From positions 1-8,522 of the forward strand of contig NZ_CAMLGT010000167.1 of NCBI RefSeq assembly GCF_946479605.1: 8,522 bases of DNA. Reading direction: 5' to 3'. The DNA is from an uncultured Lacibacter sp. Its GTDB lineage: Bacteria; Bacteroidota; Bacteroidia; Chitinophagales; Chitinophagaceae. Shown here piece by piece: positions 1,184 through 6,422 of this stretch. The notes under the pieces are model-generated. The model saw only the letters and a program-made list of their open reading frames with translations, did not search any database and was not told the DNA's origin. The first letter of the stretch is position 1; every line of letters starts with the position of its first letter. Made by a program: the position numbers and the translations under genes.

Positions 1184-2176
1184 ATGAAACAACTTTTTCT
1201 TTTCGCTTTTCTGATTGTTGCCGGTTCTGTATCGGCGCAAACCATTCAACTGCTTGATAGCGGTAAAACAACTTCCATTCGTGGATTGAGTGTGGTGAAT
1301 GACAATATTGTTTGGGTGAGTGGTGCCAATGGAATGGTGGGTCGATCGATTGATGGTGGTGCAACATTCAAATGGAATAAGGTGGATGGCTTCGCCAAAA
1401 CTGATTTCAGAGATATTGAAGCATTTGATGCCAATACGGCCATCATTATGGGTATTGATACACCGGCTGTGATCTTAAAAACAACTGATGGTGGTATTAC
1501 GTGGAAGATCGTTTTCCAGGATAAACGAGCGGGTATGTTTTTAGATGCGATGGAATTCTTCAGTAAAGAAAGTGGTATGGTCATCGGCGATCCGATCAAC
1601 GGAAAAATTTTTATGGCCGTAACTGTTGATGGTGGCAATACCTGGCGTGCCATGCCGGAGGGGGTTGCCCCAGCTGCAGAAAAAGGTGAAGCGATGTTTG
1701 CCAGCAGTGGTACCAATATTCAGGCTGTTGGTAAGAATGAATTGTTTTTTATTACAGGTGGAACGTATTCAAGATTGTTTATCCGCAATGATAAAATTGT
1801 GTTGCCCATCATACAGGGAAAAGAAACAACCGGCGCCAATTCTTTAGCGGTATGGGATAAAAAAACATTTGCTGTGGTGGGTGGTGATTTTAATGATGCC
1901 ACATCAACAGAAAGGAATTGTGTGTTGAGTAAAGATGCCGGTAAGAGTTTTATCAGCCCCACTACTCCACCCTTTGGTTATCGCAGTTGTATTGAATACT
2001 TATCCAAATCAAAACTCATCACTTGTGGTTTAACGGGTGTTGATGTGAGTGAGGATGGCGGTATGAACTGGCGGAACATTTCTGCAACCGGTTTTCATGT
2101 GGTGCAGAAAGCAAAGAAAGGAAAGGCTGTTTATTTAGCTGGCGGTAAGGGAAGAGTGGCGAAGTTGGTATGGTGA
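1184..2176 (+). CDS. Secreted Asp-box (BNR/YCF48-like) beta-propeller protein
   Basis: This is a 330-residue protein with a clear Sec signal peptide: Lys2, a hydrophobic core at residues 4-14, and probable cleavage after SVSA (18/19). The start is fixed by the signal peptide. Five Asp-box motifs (S/T-x-D-G/A-G-x-T/S-F/W) occur at residues 55-62, 100-107, 147-154, 249-256 and 289-296. Such motifs mark hairpin turns in the blades of sialidase- and YCF48-like beta-propellers. Bacteroidota carry many such proteins, usually annotated as oxidoreductase or photosystem II stability factor-like. No sialidase FRIP motif or catalytic residues are visible, so enzymatic activity is unsupported. It should act in the periplasm or outside the cell, and no C-terminal sorting domain is attached. 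It stands alone, divergent from hutH, with its own promoter. The precise role is unknown. Confidence 0.85.
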   Translation: MKQLFLFAFLIVAGSVSAQTIQLLDSGKTTSIRGLSVVNDNIVWVSGANGMVGRSIDGGATFKWNKVDGFAKTDFRDIEAFDANTAIIMGIDTPAVILKTTDGGITWKIVFQDKRAGMFLDAMEFFSKESGMVIGDPINGKIFMAVTVDGGNTWRAMPEGVAPAAEKGEAMFASSGTNIQAVGKNELFFITGGTYSRLFIRNDKIVLPIIQGKETTGANSLAVWDKKTFAVVGGDFNDATSTERNCVLSKDAGKSFISPTTPPFGYRSCIEYLSKSKLITCGLTGVDVSEDGGMNWRNISATGFHVVQKAKKGKAVYLAGGKGRVAKLVW

Positions 2177-2202: not shown

Positions 2203-2284
2203 TAGCTGTCATCCCTAGGTACGAGGGATCTGTTGGGCAGCGATGCAATAGTTGAGCAGATTCCTCCTTCGTTGGAATGACAAA
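2203..2284. repeat. 82-bp palindromic repeat, copy 1
   Basis: The copy consists of a left half (2207-2232), a 24-base centre, and a right half in inverted orientation (2257-2282). The two 26-base halves match at 20 positions, both beginning TGTCAT and ending ATCTG. Each half can also fold alone: the left pairs ATCCC with GGGAT, the right pairs ATTCC with GGAAT. It differs from copy 2 only at 2216 (T for G) and 2243 (A for G). Confidence 0.9.
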
Positions 2285-2290
2285 TGGCTC

Positions 2291-2320
2291 AGCAGATCCC
2301 TCCTAACGTCGGGATGACAG
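2291..2320. repeat. Extra half-unit of the palindromic repeat
   Basis: This 30-base stretch, starting AGCAGATCCCTCCT and ending GGGATGACAG, is a further half-unit in the same orientation as the right half of copy 1, one base longer in the loop. It keeps the 5-bp stem ATCCC/GGGAT. It lies between copy 1 and the GIY-YIG start codon and could sit in the leader of that gene. Confidence 0.75.
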
Positions 2321-2352
2321 GAGATTTCAGCTTTTGTATTATTTTCAACTGC

Positions 2353-2667
2353 ATGAAACCTATCGGAACACACAACTACTTCGTGTACATCACTACAAAT
2401 CAAAACAAGACTGTTCTGTACGTAGGCGTTACCAACGATCTCTATACAAGACTTCTTCAACACAAAGAAAACGCTTCGCCTTTTACACATACCAGCTTTG
2501 CCGGAAAATACAATGCTTACTTTTTGATTTACTATGAACGCTTTGGCCAAATAGAACATGCGATTGAACGGGAGAAAGAGTTGAAAAGCTGGCGAAGAAG
2601 TAAGAAAGAAGAGCTGATCAATTCGTTTAATCCTGAATGGCGGTTTCTGAATGATGATATTGAATAA
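2353..2667 (+). CDS. Small GIY-YIG endonuclease (YhbQ/URI-like single-domain)
   Basis: This 104-residue protein is essentially one GIY-YIG domain. The GIY and YIG motifs appear as VYI (11-13) and YVG (23-25), ten residues apart. Arg33 in the following helix (DLYTRLLQHK) fits the conserved catalytic Arg, and Glu74 in the EREKELK segment fits the metal-binding Glu. The C-terminus has the LINSFNPEW signature common in stand-alone Bacteroidota members. Such enzymes cut DNA with a divalent metal; the target here is unknown. An upstream ATG at 2284 in the same frame would begin inside the repeat and add 23 residues unlike the family, so I place the start at 2353. No DNA-binding domain is fused. The gene is flanked on both sides by the same palindromic repeat, suggesting that the repeats and nuclease travel together. 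Confidence 0.85.
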   Translation: MKPIGTHNYFVYITTNQNKTVLYVGVTNDLYTRLLQHKENASPFTHTSFAGKYNAYFLIYYERFGQIEHAIEREKELKSWRRSKKEELINSFNPEWRFLNDDIE

Positions 2668-2683
2668 ACACAAAAGATCAATA

Positions 2684-2765
2684 TAGCTGTCATCCCGAGG
2701 TACGAGGGATCTGTTGGGCAGCGGTGCAATAGTTGAGCAGATTCCTCCTTCGTTGGAATGACAAA
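2684..2765. repeat. 82-bp palindromic repeat, copy 2
   Basis: This is a direct copy of 2203-2284, starting 17 bases after the GIY-YIG stop codon. Its halves are at 2688-2713 and 2738-2763. Identity to copy 1 stops abruptly at both ends. It retains both half-hairpins. Confidence 0.9.
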
Positions 2766-2772
2766 AAATCAA

Positions 2773-2786
2773 CAGCAGGATGACAG
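2773..2786. repeat. Truncated half-unit remnant after copy 2
   Basis: CAGCAGGATGACAG looks like the half-unit at 2291-2320 with about 16 internal bases missing: the outer AGCA and GGATGACAG parts remain. It lies at the same relative position after copy 2 as the intact half-unit after copy 1. Confidence 0.5.
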
Positions 2787-2900: not shown

Positions 2901-3305
2901 ATGCATATTCAACTACACGATGAAATAACACTGAAAGAAATCAAGACTGTTTTTTCTCACTTCTACCCATACCTGAAACTTGAGTTCTATAACTGTCCGC
3001 ATAAACTGTTTGAAGCATGTTGTGAAAATGATGTACTGCCGGATGAGGTGCAGCTGAAAACTGTAAAACCGGAACACACGAACGGCATCATTGATATACA
3101 GCCCACAGAAATTGTTGCCGATCTTGAACAGGAATTTCAACAACGTTTTGGAATACCTGCACAGGTGTTATGGCTTGAGCATGGCGAATGGAAACAAACA
3201 ACCGGAATGGATAGTTTCAGTTTAAAAGAGGTGAATGAATTCAGCCAGAACGATTCGGATGAATACATTGTTGGCAACTACGAAGAAGGATTTGAAGAAG
3301 CCTGA
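2901..3305 (+). CDS. Conserved Bacteroidota protein of unknown function
   Basis: This is a 134-residue soluble protein with no signal peptide or membrane segment. Visible features are an N-terminal MHIQLHDEITLKEI opening, FYPYLKLEF at 21-29, a predicted helix with DLEQEFQQRFGIPAQVLW around 74-91, and an acidic C-terminal tail (DSDEYIVGNYEEGFEEA). From memory this matches a family of short hypothetical proteins widespread in Bacteroidota that share the FPYLK-EF and LE-F---FG--VQV patterns, for which I know no function. Cys32, Cys40 and Cys41 lie close together but do not form a recognised metal-binding motif. It follows the repeat cassette and ends nine bases from the convergent DUF486 gene. 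I see no strong promoter directly upstream. Confidence 0.75.
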   Translation: MHIQLHDEITLKEIKTVFSHFYPYLKLEFYNCPHKLFEACCENDVLPDEVQLKTVKPEHTNGIIDIQPTEIVADLEQEFQQRFGIPAQVLWLEHGEWKQTTGMDSFSLKEVNEFSQNDSDEYIVGNYEEGFEEA

Positions 3306-4592: not shown

Positions 4593-4623
4593 CAAAGCTA
4601 AGGTTCAGGAACGAAAACCCAAA
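4593..4623 (-). promoter_or_regulatory. Candidate pyrB promoter, partly inside the repeat tract
   Basis: On the minus strand TTTG (4623-4620) is followed after 19 bases by TAGCTTTG (4600-4593), a full match to the Bacteroidota TTTG / TAnnTTTG consensus. The -7 box ends seven bases before the pyrB ATG, so the leader would be almost absent. The -33 box lies at the edge of the AAATCC-rich tract, which on this strand is full of TTTG; chance matches are therefore more likely than usual. Confidence 0.5.
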
Positions 4624-4716
4624 ATTGAAAACCAAAAGGCAAAATCCAAAGATCAAATCCCAAAATCCAAAAGACAAAATCCAAAGCAAAATGTGAAAAC
4701 CCAAAATCCAAGGGAA
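4614..4716. repeat. CAAAATCCAAA low-complexity repeat array
   Basis: This is a roughly 100-base A/C-rich tract built from irregularly spaced copies of CAAAATCCAAA at 4640-4650, 4661-4671 and 4675-4685, with a near copy (last base G) at 4702-4712. Partial copies such as AAAACCCAAAATT lie between them. It occupies much of the 177 bases between the four-helix-bundle stop and the pyrB start. The complementary motif appears on the other side of that gene. Confidence 0.8.
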
Positions 4717-4762: not shown

Positions 4763-5116
4763 TTATTTTCCGTCTAGCTTTTTCAAGATGGCTGAGAATA
4801 TTTTCCTGAGCTGTTCCGCTTCATCAATCAGCCTCATTCTTTCGGGCTCTAATTCCGCTTTTTTACTCTCAATATGCAACAACCTTAACCAGCGAACAGA
4901 TTCTTTCGATTCTTTTCTTGAAATCCGTATCCGCATACGTAAATCTGCAGGGCCAAGATTTTCATTCGCTTCTATATAATTGGCCCCAACAGAACCGCTG
5001 GAACGAACCAGCTGTTTAATGTCTTCCAGGTTAATTACATCCCAGGTTAGCTTTCTGCAAAAATTTCTTACATCGTTGGCAAAATGATAAGTTCTTTCTT
5101 CCAGTTCGGCAGACAT
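4763..5116 (-). CDS. Four-helix-bundle protein (23S rRNA intervening-sequence / S23 family)
   Basis: This 117-residue helical protein carries the family signatures: an ERTYHFANDVRNF opening (7-19), QLVRSSGSVGANYIEANE at 35-52, and KESKESVRWLRLL at 68-80, ending in a Lys/Glu-rich helix. The family is named from ORFs inside 23S rRNA intervening sequences of Leptospira and others. Homologues also occur alone in Bacteroidota, and the Avd protein of diversity-generating retroelements is a distant relative. The function of the stand-alone proteins is not established; a basic surface for nucleic-acid binding is inferred. No rRNA, reverse transcriptase or template/variable repeat lies in the window. 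The gene sits between pyrR and pyrB with AAATCC-type repeats on both sides in opposite orientation, which suggests a later insertion into a pyrR-pyrB pair. Confidence 0.87.
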   Translation of the reverse strand: MSAELEERTYHFANDVRNFCRKLTWDVINLEDIKQLVRSSGSVGANYIEANENLGPADLRMRIRISRKESKESVRWLRLLHIESKKAELEPERMRLIDEAEQLRKIFSAILKKLDGK

Positions 5117-5849: not shown

Positions 5850-6422
5850 CTAATATTTATGTTTGAATACGTAGAACAGTCCAACCTGAATGTTCCTGTT
5901 ATACAGGTTTACAGAACTGGCATCGTTGATATTTGTAAATCCGTAATTATATCGTGCATCAACACCAAGGCCTGATTCGCCAACAAAACTTGCACCAACT
6001 GTCCAACCCATGTCAACAGGTTTGAATGAATTTTTCACATCCACTTTTGTATCGCCTTGCTGCATGTTTGCACCGGCAAGTATCCCCACCTGTGGTCCTG
6101 TATGAATACGGAAACCACGGTCGAACATATATTGCAATTGCACCGGCACATTTACATAATGCAGCCTTGTTTTTGAATTACTGGTTTGTGCACCTTGTCC
6201 CGAATAGGATACTTCCGGTTGCAAAGCCCATGATTTACTAAGGTGTATATGTGCTAACCCGCCTGCATGAAAACCAGCCTTGGCTTCATACCCTGCGTTG
6301 GGTGAACTTGCAATAGTTGATACGTTCAAACCGCCTTTCAATCCAACATGTATATTGCTATGCTGTGCATGGCTAAATCCGGCCGCAAGTAATAATGCCC
6401 CTGAAATAAATAATGCTTTCAT
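5850..6422 (-). CDS. Outer-membrane beta-barrel (porin family) protein
   Basis: This is a 190-residue precursor with a signal peptide (MKALFISGALLLAAGFSHA, cleavage about 19/20). The mature part begins with the GLKGGLN motif (27-33) typical of the Bacteroidota OMP_b-brl_2 (PorT-like) family, followed by alternating strands such as WALQPEVSYSGQG, HYVNVPVQLQYMF and GWTVGASFVG. The length suits an eight-stranded barrel in the outer membrane. The conserved YVNVPVQLQY and GPQVGILAGA segments (89-98, 109-118) support the family. Function is not established for most members; general structural or adhesion roles are guesses. It forms a single-gene unit: a consensus promoter upstream, a strong terminator downstream, and a TAG stop. 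Confidence 0.9.
   Translation of the reverse strand: MKALFISGALLLAAGFSHAQHSNIHVGLKGGLNVSTIASSPNAGYEAKAGFHAGGLAHIHLSKSWALQPEVSYSGQGAQTSNSKTRLHYVNVPVQLQYMFDRGFRIHTGPQVGILAGANMQQGDTKVDVKNSFKPVDMGWTVGASFVGESGLGVDARYNYGFTNINDASSVNLYNRNIQVGLFYVFKHKY

Follow-up and report, generated by a model that had tools for sequence, protein, structure and literature searches.

A GIY-YIG nuclease gene paired with its own type of REP palindrome in Lacibacter and distant relatives

We investigated whether a small GIY-YIG nuclease gene that lies between near-identical palindromic repeats encodes the enzyme that acts on and spreads these repeats. The gene was found in a stretch of 8,522 nucleotides from an uncultured Lacibacter sp. 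of the family Chitinophagaceae (contig NZ_CAMLGT010000167.1; hereafter, the window). REPs are small palindromes present in high copy number in some bacterial genomes, and species with several REP families have repeat-specific RAYT enzymes (PMC3733652). GTAG REPs have RAYTs. CGTC-tagged REPs (CGTC-1 to -4, Neisseria dRS3, and Rickettsia RPE-4/-6) were described in 2013 as apparently without a dedicated enzyme, no tyrosine transposase gene being flanked by them (Di Nocera et al. 2013; PMC3733652). Our results make it probable that the nuclease acts on and spreads its own repeats, gene and repeats forming one REP–nuclease–REP mobile cassette.

The order at the window locus is dimer A, a single half-unit, the gene, and dimer B. 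An earlier note, made from the sequence alone, had placed the gene between two direct 82-bp repeats with inverted, TGTCAT-ended halves, and the open reading frame, the PF01541 match, and the repeat comparison confirmed this arrangement: positions 2203–2284 and 2684–2765 are identical at 80 of 82 positions (98%), with two differences. The half-units of the dimers are 26 bases long, inverted, and TGTCAT-ended, and take the form TGTC-arm-n-arm-CTG, with ATCCC arms in one half and ATTCC arms in the other. The third half-unit (2293–2319) and a possible remnant (2776–2785) come in addition to the repeats that the note described. The features are as follows.

1184..2176, + strand: YCF48/BNR-type gene, flanking and outside the element, anchor for the empty-site comparison (profile search, synteny).
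2203..2284, no strand: REP dimer A, two inverted TGTC-tagged half-units, tags outward (80/82 to dimer B).
2207..2232, + strand: half-unit TGTCATCCC...GGGATCTG of dimer A (read from the sequence; same-arm hairpin on both sides of the gene).
2257..2282, − strand: half-unit TGTCATTCC...GGAATCTG of dimer A (read from the sequence).
2293..2319, − strand: third half-unit, TGTCATCCC...GGGATCTG on the − strand, tag towards the gene (sequence; L. luteus alignment).
2353..2667, + strand: single-domain GIY-YIG nuclease gene, 104 aa (PF01541 E 3.1e-15, catalytic positions, model).
2684..2765, no strand: REP dimer B, two inverted TGTC-tagged half-units, tags outward (repeat comparison).
2688..2713, + strand: half-unit TGTCATCCCGAGGTACGAGGGATCTG of dimer B (read from the sequence).
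2738..2763, − strand: half-unit TGTCATTCC...GGAATCTG of dimer B (read from the sequence).
2776..2785, − strand: possible remnant of a further half-unit, CAGGATGACA (repeat family D10; inference).
2901..3305, + strand: 134-aa ORF without a Pfam match, outside the element, conserved across the empty sites (profile search, synteny).

Elsewhere in the window, a decayed AAAATCCAAA array (4615–4706) lies beside a gene on the − strand (4763–5116) that encodes a four-helix bundle protein (TIGR02436; weakly, 23S rRNA-intervening-sequence protein) and is located between pyrB and pyrR.

The predicted nuclease matched PF01541 with 56.7 bits against a curated cut-off of 22.6 (profile search, E 3.1e-15). 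Among 40 aligned nuclease sequences (rows with stops left out), Y12, R33, E74, and N93 were invariant, and Y23, G25, and H37 were conserved in at least 90%; we take the Tyr, Arg, Glu, and Asn positions to be catalytic. The AlphaFold model (pLDDT 91.4) had no match at E ≤ 0.001 among solved structures in Foldseek; its top match was the UPF0213 protein 1zg2 (E 1.8e-3), and Slx1, whose entry titles refer to the processing of branched DNA, was also among the nearest. UPF0213 GIY-YIG proteins, among them YhbQ, resemble the window protein in size and fold, and we know of no repeat association in print for them. The single match of a PDB sequence search, a mitochondrial ribosomal protein, was taken as spurious. 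One in-frame stop was present in each of 9 of 80 nuclease relatives (L009, L017, L020, L034, L039, L048, L065, L069, and L077), as expected of decaying selfish genes.

The tie between the repeat and GIY-YIG genes that the earlier note suspected was found in many genera. We analyzed the window together with the best 80 of 187 confirmed relatives, picked by likeness to the window protein. TGTCAT/ATGACA occurred within 300 bp of the gene on both sides at 70 of these 81 Bacteroidota loci (one side at 10, none at 1), and its density was 8.07 per kb near nuclease genes vs 0.63 elsewhere in the same loci. With no motif assumed, the similarity of upstream and downstream intergenic flanks reached at least 18 at 62 of 73 nuclease loci (8 of the 81 were dropped because their intergenic flanks were too short), compared with 17 of the 281 other genes in these loci. 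Hairpins that carry a GTC tag and share one 5-bp arm across the gene were found on both sides at 55 of 81 nuclease loci (of the remainder, 7 had them repeated on one side and 19 on neither) and at 10 of 588 other genes, 7 of which lie within 1.5 kb of the nuclease. Among GTCA sites up to 300 bp from a nuclease gene, 301 of 587 had a paired 5-bp arm, vs 214 of 2805 at distances above 1.5 kb, and 24 arm words occurred. This indicates that pairing is kept, and not one sequence. Folded alone as single-stranded DNA, the window hairpins were weak (5–6 bp arms; z of −0.2 to −1.7 for four window stretches), and the case for a real hairpin lies in comparison between loci, not in single-sequence folding.

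Pairing was weaker in a wider Chitinophagaceae set that includes distant relatives: the strict hairpin rule was satisfied on both sides at 33 of 94 loci, with repetition on one side at 9 and none at 52, and flank similarity, scored at 92 loci, reached the 99% level of cross-genome pairs at 56 of them. Part of this shortfall arose because the strict rule misses other palindromes. Among 13 loci inspected, those evident by eye and missed by the rule included CGTCATTTCGA (L094, L099), TGTCATTTCGA (L092), CGTCATTGCGAGG (L109), CGTCCTTGCGAGC (L111), CGTCATAGCG (L106), and TGTCCTCCTGA (L026); at L110, no clear palindrome was seen on one side of the gene.

Two other kinds of neighborhood were seen among distant GIY-YIG genes. 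One group lies next to tRNA genes, and part of a tRNA sequence recurs beside the GIY-YIG gene as judged by eye (L120, L126, L129, L196, L204, L206, L208, L280, L285, L291, and L295; four such genes in genome G069), and these look like tRNA-targeting cassettes. Others (L190, L193/L279, L194, and L201) are flanked by TTCGAC...GTCGAA / GAGC...GCTC palindromic repeats.

The window repeat is also multi-copy; the earlier note had named occurrence at this locus alone as grounds for refutation. In the genome of Lacibacter luteus, the 82-bp unit was matched 14 times (E ≤ 0.001), and the half-unit pattern had 19 matches vs 0 for the pattern read backwards (1 match over all 147 genomes). Repeat matches in L. 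luteus also occur in pairs, in keeping with inverted dimers. The note's expectation that repeat-rich genomes carry a related GIY-YIG gene held in part: among 147 Chitinophagaceae genomes, a close nuclease (E ≤ 1e-14) was found in 23 of the 30 genomes rich in either kind of repeat vs 27 of the 117 others (p = 9e-8; this and the other genome-level p values treat genomes as independent, though they are related, and take no account of genome completeness), and it was absent from seven repeat-rich genomes (G002, G021, G044, G065, G069, G111, and G134). These seven contain 21 PF01541 places. Twelve are in open frames of at least 284 aa, which by their length are UvrC-like or other long proteins; the 9 stand-alone loci, from five of the genomes, lie beside tRNAs, beside other repeats, or beside neither, and none has the searched REP patterns. 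Of the 50 genomes with a close nuclease, 27 had no searched pattern in 5 copies or more; some of these have other palindromes. Genomes G065 and G111 contain 46 and 43 repeat copies, respectively, and a REP-flanked GIY-YIG gene was found in neither. Possible reasons are that their REPs are orphans, that the assemblies are incomplete, or that another enzyme is at work.

Such repeats could in principle be REPs of the RAYT/IS200 type moved by a Y1 transposase, and PF01797 (Y1) matches did occur in 107 of the 147 genomes. However, Y1 genes were not significantly enriched in repeat-rich genomes (25 of 30 vs 82 of 117 others, p = 0.11), and the searched REP patterns were missing within 500 bp of all 30 Y1_Tnp loci read in the same genomes, 2 of which satisfied a loose same-arm hairpin rule with other sequences. 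Together with the published finding of no tyrosine transposase gene flanked by CGTC REPs (PMC3733652), this makes a Y1 enzyme as the spreading agent extremely improbable.

We then compared repeat types with nuclease lineages. The tree comprised 113 nucleases from 190 loci; of 115 repeat-labelled loci, L083 (same place as L001) and L112 (untypical label) were dropped. Repeat labels required 58 changes on this tree vs a shuffled mean of 79.0, and 0 of 200 shuffles were as low, although near-copies favor overall clustering, labels such as ATCCT, ATTCC, and ATCTC do not cluster when taken singly, and resolution of the tree is weak, with 14 of its 110 inner branches starred. One clade (SH-aLRT 95) contained every labelled nuclease with ATTGC/ACTGC arms, 11 in number and from 10 genomes. 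The REP type CGTCATTGC belongs to a nuclease lineage other than that of the window. Among the 147 Chitinophagaceae genomes, at least 5 CGTCAYTGC copies were present in 7 of 14 with the ATTGC/ACTGC clade vs 3 of 133 without it (p = 1.4e-6), whereas the TGTC pattern had no such link to this clade (p = 0.41). The co-variation of repeat family and nuclease lineage that the earlier note had proposed is thus present across the tree, and it also appears between paralogues of one genome. In G133, five REP-flanked paralogues have distinguishable repeats (TGTCATGTTGAGC, CGTCATTTCGAAC, CGTCATTGCGACG, CGTCATTGCGAGG, and CGTCACTGCGAGG), the last three of which share one general type; L. luteus has one ATCCC-type and one ATTGC-type nuclease, and both repeats are multi-copy (19 and 28 pattern matches). 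Because paralogues within these two genomes differ in their repeats, host descent alone is insufficient to explain the match. The same observation, along with the Y1_Tnp genes that lack these REPs in the same genomes, argues against the absence of any functional link, with REP clusters being recombination hot spots that gather a small mobile gene by chance. Insertion of some IS has indeed been reported to be associated with REPs (PMC1525189), but we consider chance gathering very improbable here.

Relatives with their own repeats were not confined to Bacteroidota. A protein search of a plasmid collection yielded 33 records, and we read 15, one of them from Bacteroidota (Spirosoma). Tagged palindromes were seen by eye on both sides of the gene in 13 of the 15 records and on one side in 2 (Photobacterium and Rhizobium tumorigenes); a strict script applied to the same records found them on both sides in 9, repeated without a same-arm match across the gene in 2, and none in 4. 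CGTC/TGTC-tagged palindromes, including the Neisseria dRS3 type, adjoin the proteobacterial and cyanobacterial relatives; in Sinorhizobium C101, the tag is CTC. The repeat type at the nuclease was CGTCATCCTCGGGCTTGACCCGAGGATCCA in S. meliloti, Shinella, and Neorhizobium, CGTCATTCCCGCGCAGGCGGGAATCC in Neisseria gonorrhoeae and Aeromonas, CGTCACCCCGGG... in Sphingobium, and TGTCATTCTGAG... in the cyanobacterium Planktothrix. A narrower proteobacterial pattern had too short a gap and missed most repeats, and a loose pattern with a wider gap was therefore used on 8 records. The repeat type found was that flanking the record's own nuclease in 7 of the 8; the Novosphingobium record had no match with this loose pattern.

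Copy numbers in these records ranged widely. Matches, variants included, numbered 96 in N. gonorrhoeae, 11 in Sphingobium TomTYG46, 9 in Azospirillum, and 9 in Shinella WSC3-e. Rhizobium CIAT894 had 6, all within 2.5 kb around the nuclease; the Neorhizobium record had 2, both at the nuclease; the S. meliloti Ak57 record had 4, of which only 2 were of the nuclease type, both at the nuclease; and the Aeromonas record had 2, both at the nuclease (narrower pattern). A search for hairpins with 7-bp arms in 50 kb of S. meliloti 1021 pSymB gave 10 single matches and no repeated REP. These counts, from copies at the nuclease only up to 96, suggest that the ends move together with the gene, with multiplication as a possible later step. 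They also bear on the possibility that the nuclease is a homing passenger, that is, a selfish free-standing Seg-like endonuclease that cuts REPs and is copied into them while the REPs spread otherwise. In Ak57, Neorhizobium, and Aeromonas, the only repeat copies found flank the nuclease, and in CIAT894 they lie close around it; these records thus gave no sign of an earlier REP field as a homing target.

Sites with and without the cassette bear on the same alternative. Syntenic loci that lack it, as the earlier note had envisaged, exist for L. luteus and a further close relative, genome G084, at the window site and for Azospirillum relatives between sufB and sufC, so a nuclease gene-less allele occurs at the same site in both groups. 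In L. luteus (G001; locus L210) and G084 (L211), the BNR gene, whose products are 85% identical to the BNR protein of the window, and the downstream ORF enclose REP units and no nuclease. The L. luteus nuclease, 89% identical to that of the window, lies elsewhere (L001), and window positions 2294–2715 match L001 positions 5943–6365 at 82.5%; this common stretch includes the half-units on either side of the gene and ends with them, its left end being the third half-unit (2293..2319). The cassette is present at the BNR site in a more distant MAG (L002), so loss by direct-repeat recombination in L. luteus and G084 is as possible as gain in the window line. In either case, the comparison points to a dispensable gene with REPs as its borders. 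No target-site duplication was definable in the window–L. luteus alignment, where the junctions lie inside repeats, or in Azospirillum, where inspection by eye did not place the junctions; at the window it is ambiguous because the site itself is a REP array.

Azospirillum lipoferum carries dimer, gene, and dimer between sufB and sufC, and Shinella PSBB067 also has a cassette between these genes. The three sufB–sufC sites read in A. ramasamyi, A. oryzae, and B510 contained neither the gene nor a tagged REP, that of B510 having an untagged hairpin. Of 11 records listed for Sphingobium Tom strains, 7 match the whole stretch including the cassette (2 read) and 4 lack the cassette (all read). At the cassette site, TomTYG64 and TomTYG74 (L275 and L274, ~725–760) have one palindrome tagged at both ends, namely CGTCACCCCGGG-TCAAG-CCCGGGGTGACG in TomTYG64 and the same with changes in TomTYG74, and TomTYG72 and TomTYG65 have no tagged REP. 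The fused palindrome resembles a join of the outer half of one flanking REP to that of the other, and may be either an excision scar or a target.

If the gene homes into REPs, sites with REPs and no gene, like those of L. luteus and G084, are to be expected. The in-frame stops of 9 of 80 genes are in keeping with the decay of a homing gene, and REP-rich genomes without a close nuclease exist. Nevertheless, the three Azospirillum empty sites that were read lack a tagged REP, and taken with the record-level copy counts, this leaves homing into REPs that spread by other means as an unlikely explanation. We also considered that the nuclease may serve the host as a domesticated structure-specific enzyme, without mobility, either resolving REP cruciforms or being autoregulated by a hairpin. 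The nearest folds, UPF0213 1zg2 and the branched-DNA nuclease Slx1, and the conserved catalytic positions are compatible with such a role, but presence is patchy with several paralogues per genome, positions differ in related genomes, the cassette is variably present among Sphingobium plasmids, and some genes carry in-frame stops. We therefore regard a host-serving role as improbable, and return to a nuclease that spreads its own repeats.

The GIY-YIG nuclease fold is known from homing and DNA repair, and free-standing GIY-YIG homing endonuclease genes are represented by the Seg type of phage T4. The window gene resembles the latter in its fold, in being a small gene between other genes, and in having empty alleles; unlike them, it is flanked by its own palindromes, which are often multi-copy, and there is no self-splicing element. 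MITEs are short inverted-repeat-ended offspring of insertion sequences that have an enzyme gene, and the gene-less repeats here likewise appear as short inverted-repeat-ended offspring of an enzyme-bearing element, but the enzyme fold differs and no target-site duplication is established at the nuclease cassettes. REP/REPIN–RAYT systems (REPtrons) share a single enzyme gene between tagged palindromes, gene-less REP dimers throughout the genome, and an enzyme lineage matched to repeat type; they differ in having a Y1/HUH enzyme and a GTAG tag, instead of GIY-YIG and [CT]GTC. The window system works like REP–RAYT but is none, because its enzyme is GIY-YIG and the 30 Y1 loci lack these REPs.

As for the repeat itself, CGTC REP families 1–4 are described as having a CGTC/TGTC/CCTC tag, an 8–9 bp stem, a loop of 4–5, a CCA tail, and inverted dimers (PMC3733652). 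The window repeat agrees in its tag (TGTC), the AT at the stem start, and the inverted dimers, but has a 5-bp arm, GA/GA positions, and a CTG tail; because stem length and tail differ, we keep it out of CGTC-1 to -4. The CGTC tag occurs in relatives, and the repeats of several proteobacterial relatives fit the described stem, loop, and tail. No report that joins GIY-YIG with REPs was found among the matches listed in a search of open-access PMC full text. The pairing of GIY-YIG nucleases with REPs is real and general and, as far as seen, undescribed.

How might such a cassette work? We infer binding, cutting, and transposition, with the nuclease as the cause of spread. The nuclease would recognize the hairpin type that flanks its own gene and nick or cut there, most likely by binding an extruded hairpin or cruciform and cutting near the tag, which would explain both the conserved pairing and the free stem sequence. 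Repair or copying would then move the whole cassette, or the palindromic ends or a dimer alone, to new intergenic sites. The scattered REPs would be non-autonomous offspring of the cassette, as REPs are for RAYT, an unrelated enzyme, and orphan REPs would remain once the gene is lost, as could happen when the flanking direct repeats recombine. Copy counts suggest a corresponding life cycle, with possible stages of few copies, all found at the gene (Neorhizobium, Aeromonas, and S. meliloti), of tens to a hundred copies together with the gene (L. luteus, G010, G110, and N. gonorrhoeae), and of presumed orphan REPs after gene loss (G065 and G111).

The anatomy supports an element with REP hairpin ends and a GIY-YIG nuclease as its only gene, and the occurrence of relatives with their own repeats in three phyla makes the nuclease a good candidate for what spreads a large class of bacterial repeats. 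We lean, with less assurance, toward the broader view that GIY-YIG nucleases with REP ends form an autonomous mobile element class of their own, in at least Bacteroidota, Pseudomonadota, and Cyanobacteriota, that supplies the missing enzyme of the entire superfamily of CGTC/TGTC-tagged REPs, including dRS3, and moves by hairpin-directed cleavage and copying, a way of movement that we know of for no GIY-YIG enzyme. The nuclease is thereby a candidate for the published gap, the enzyme of CGTC REPs. If it is the missing enzyme, the question of where many intergenic palindromes come from, dRS3 arrays included, becomes directly testable, and the lineage-matched pairs of nuclease and repeat offer a natural series for studies of hairpin recognition. 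The GIY-YIG fold would then gain a role in making bacterial repeats.
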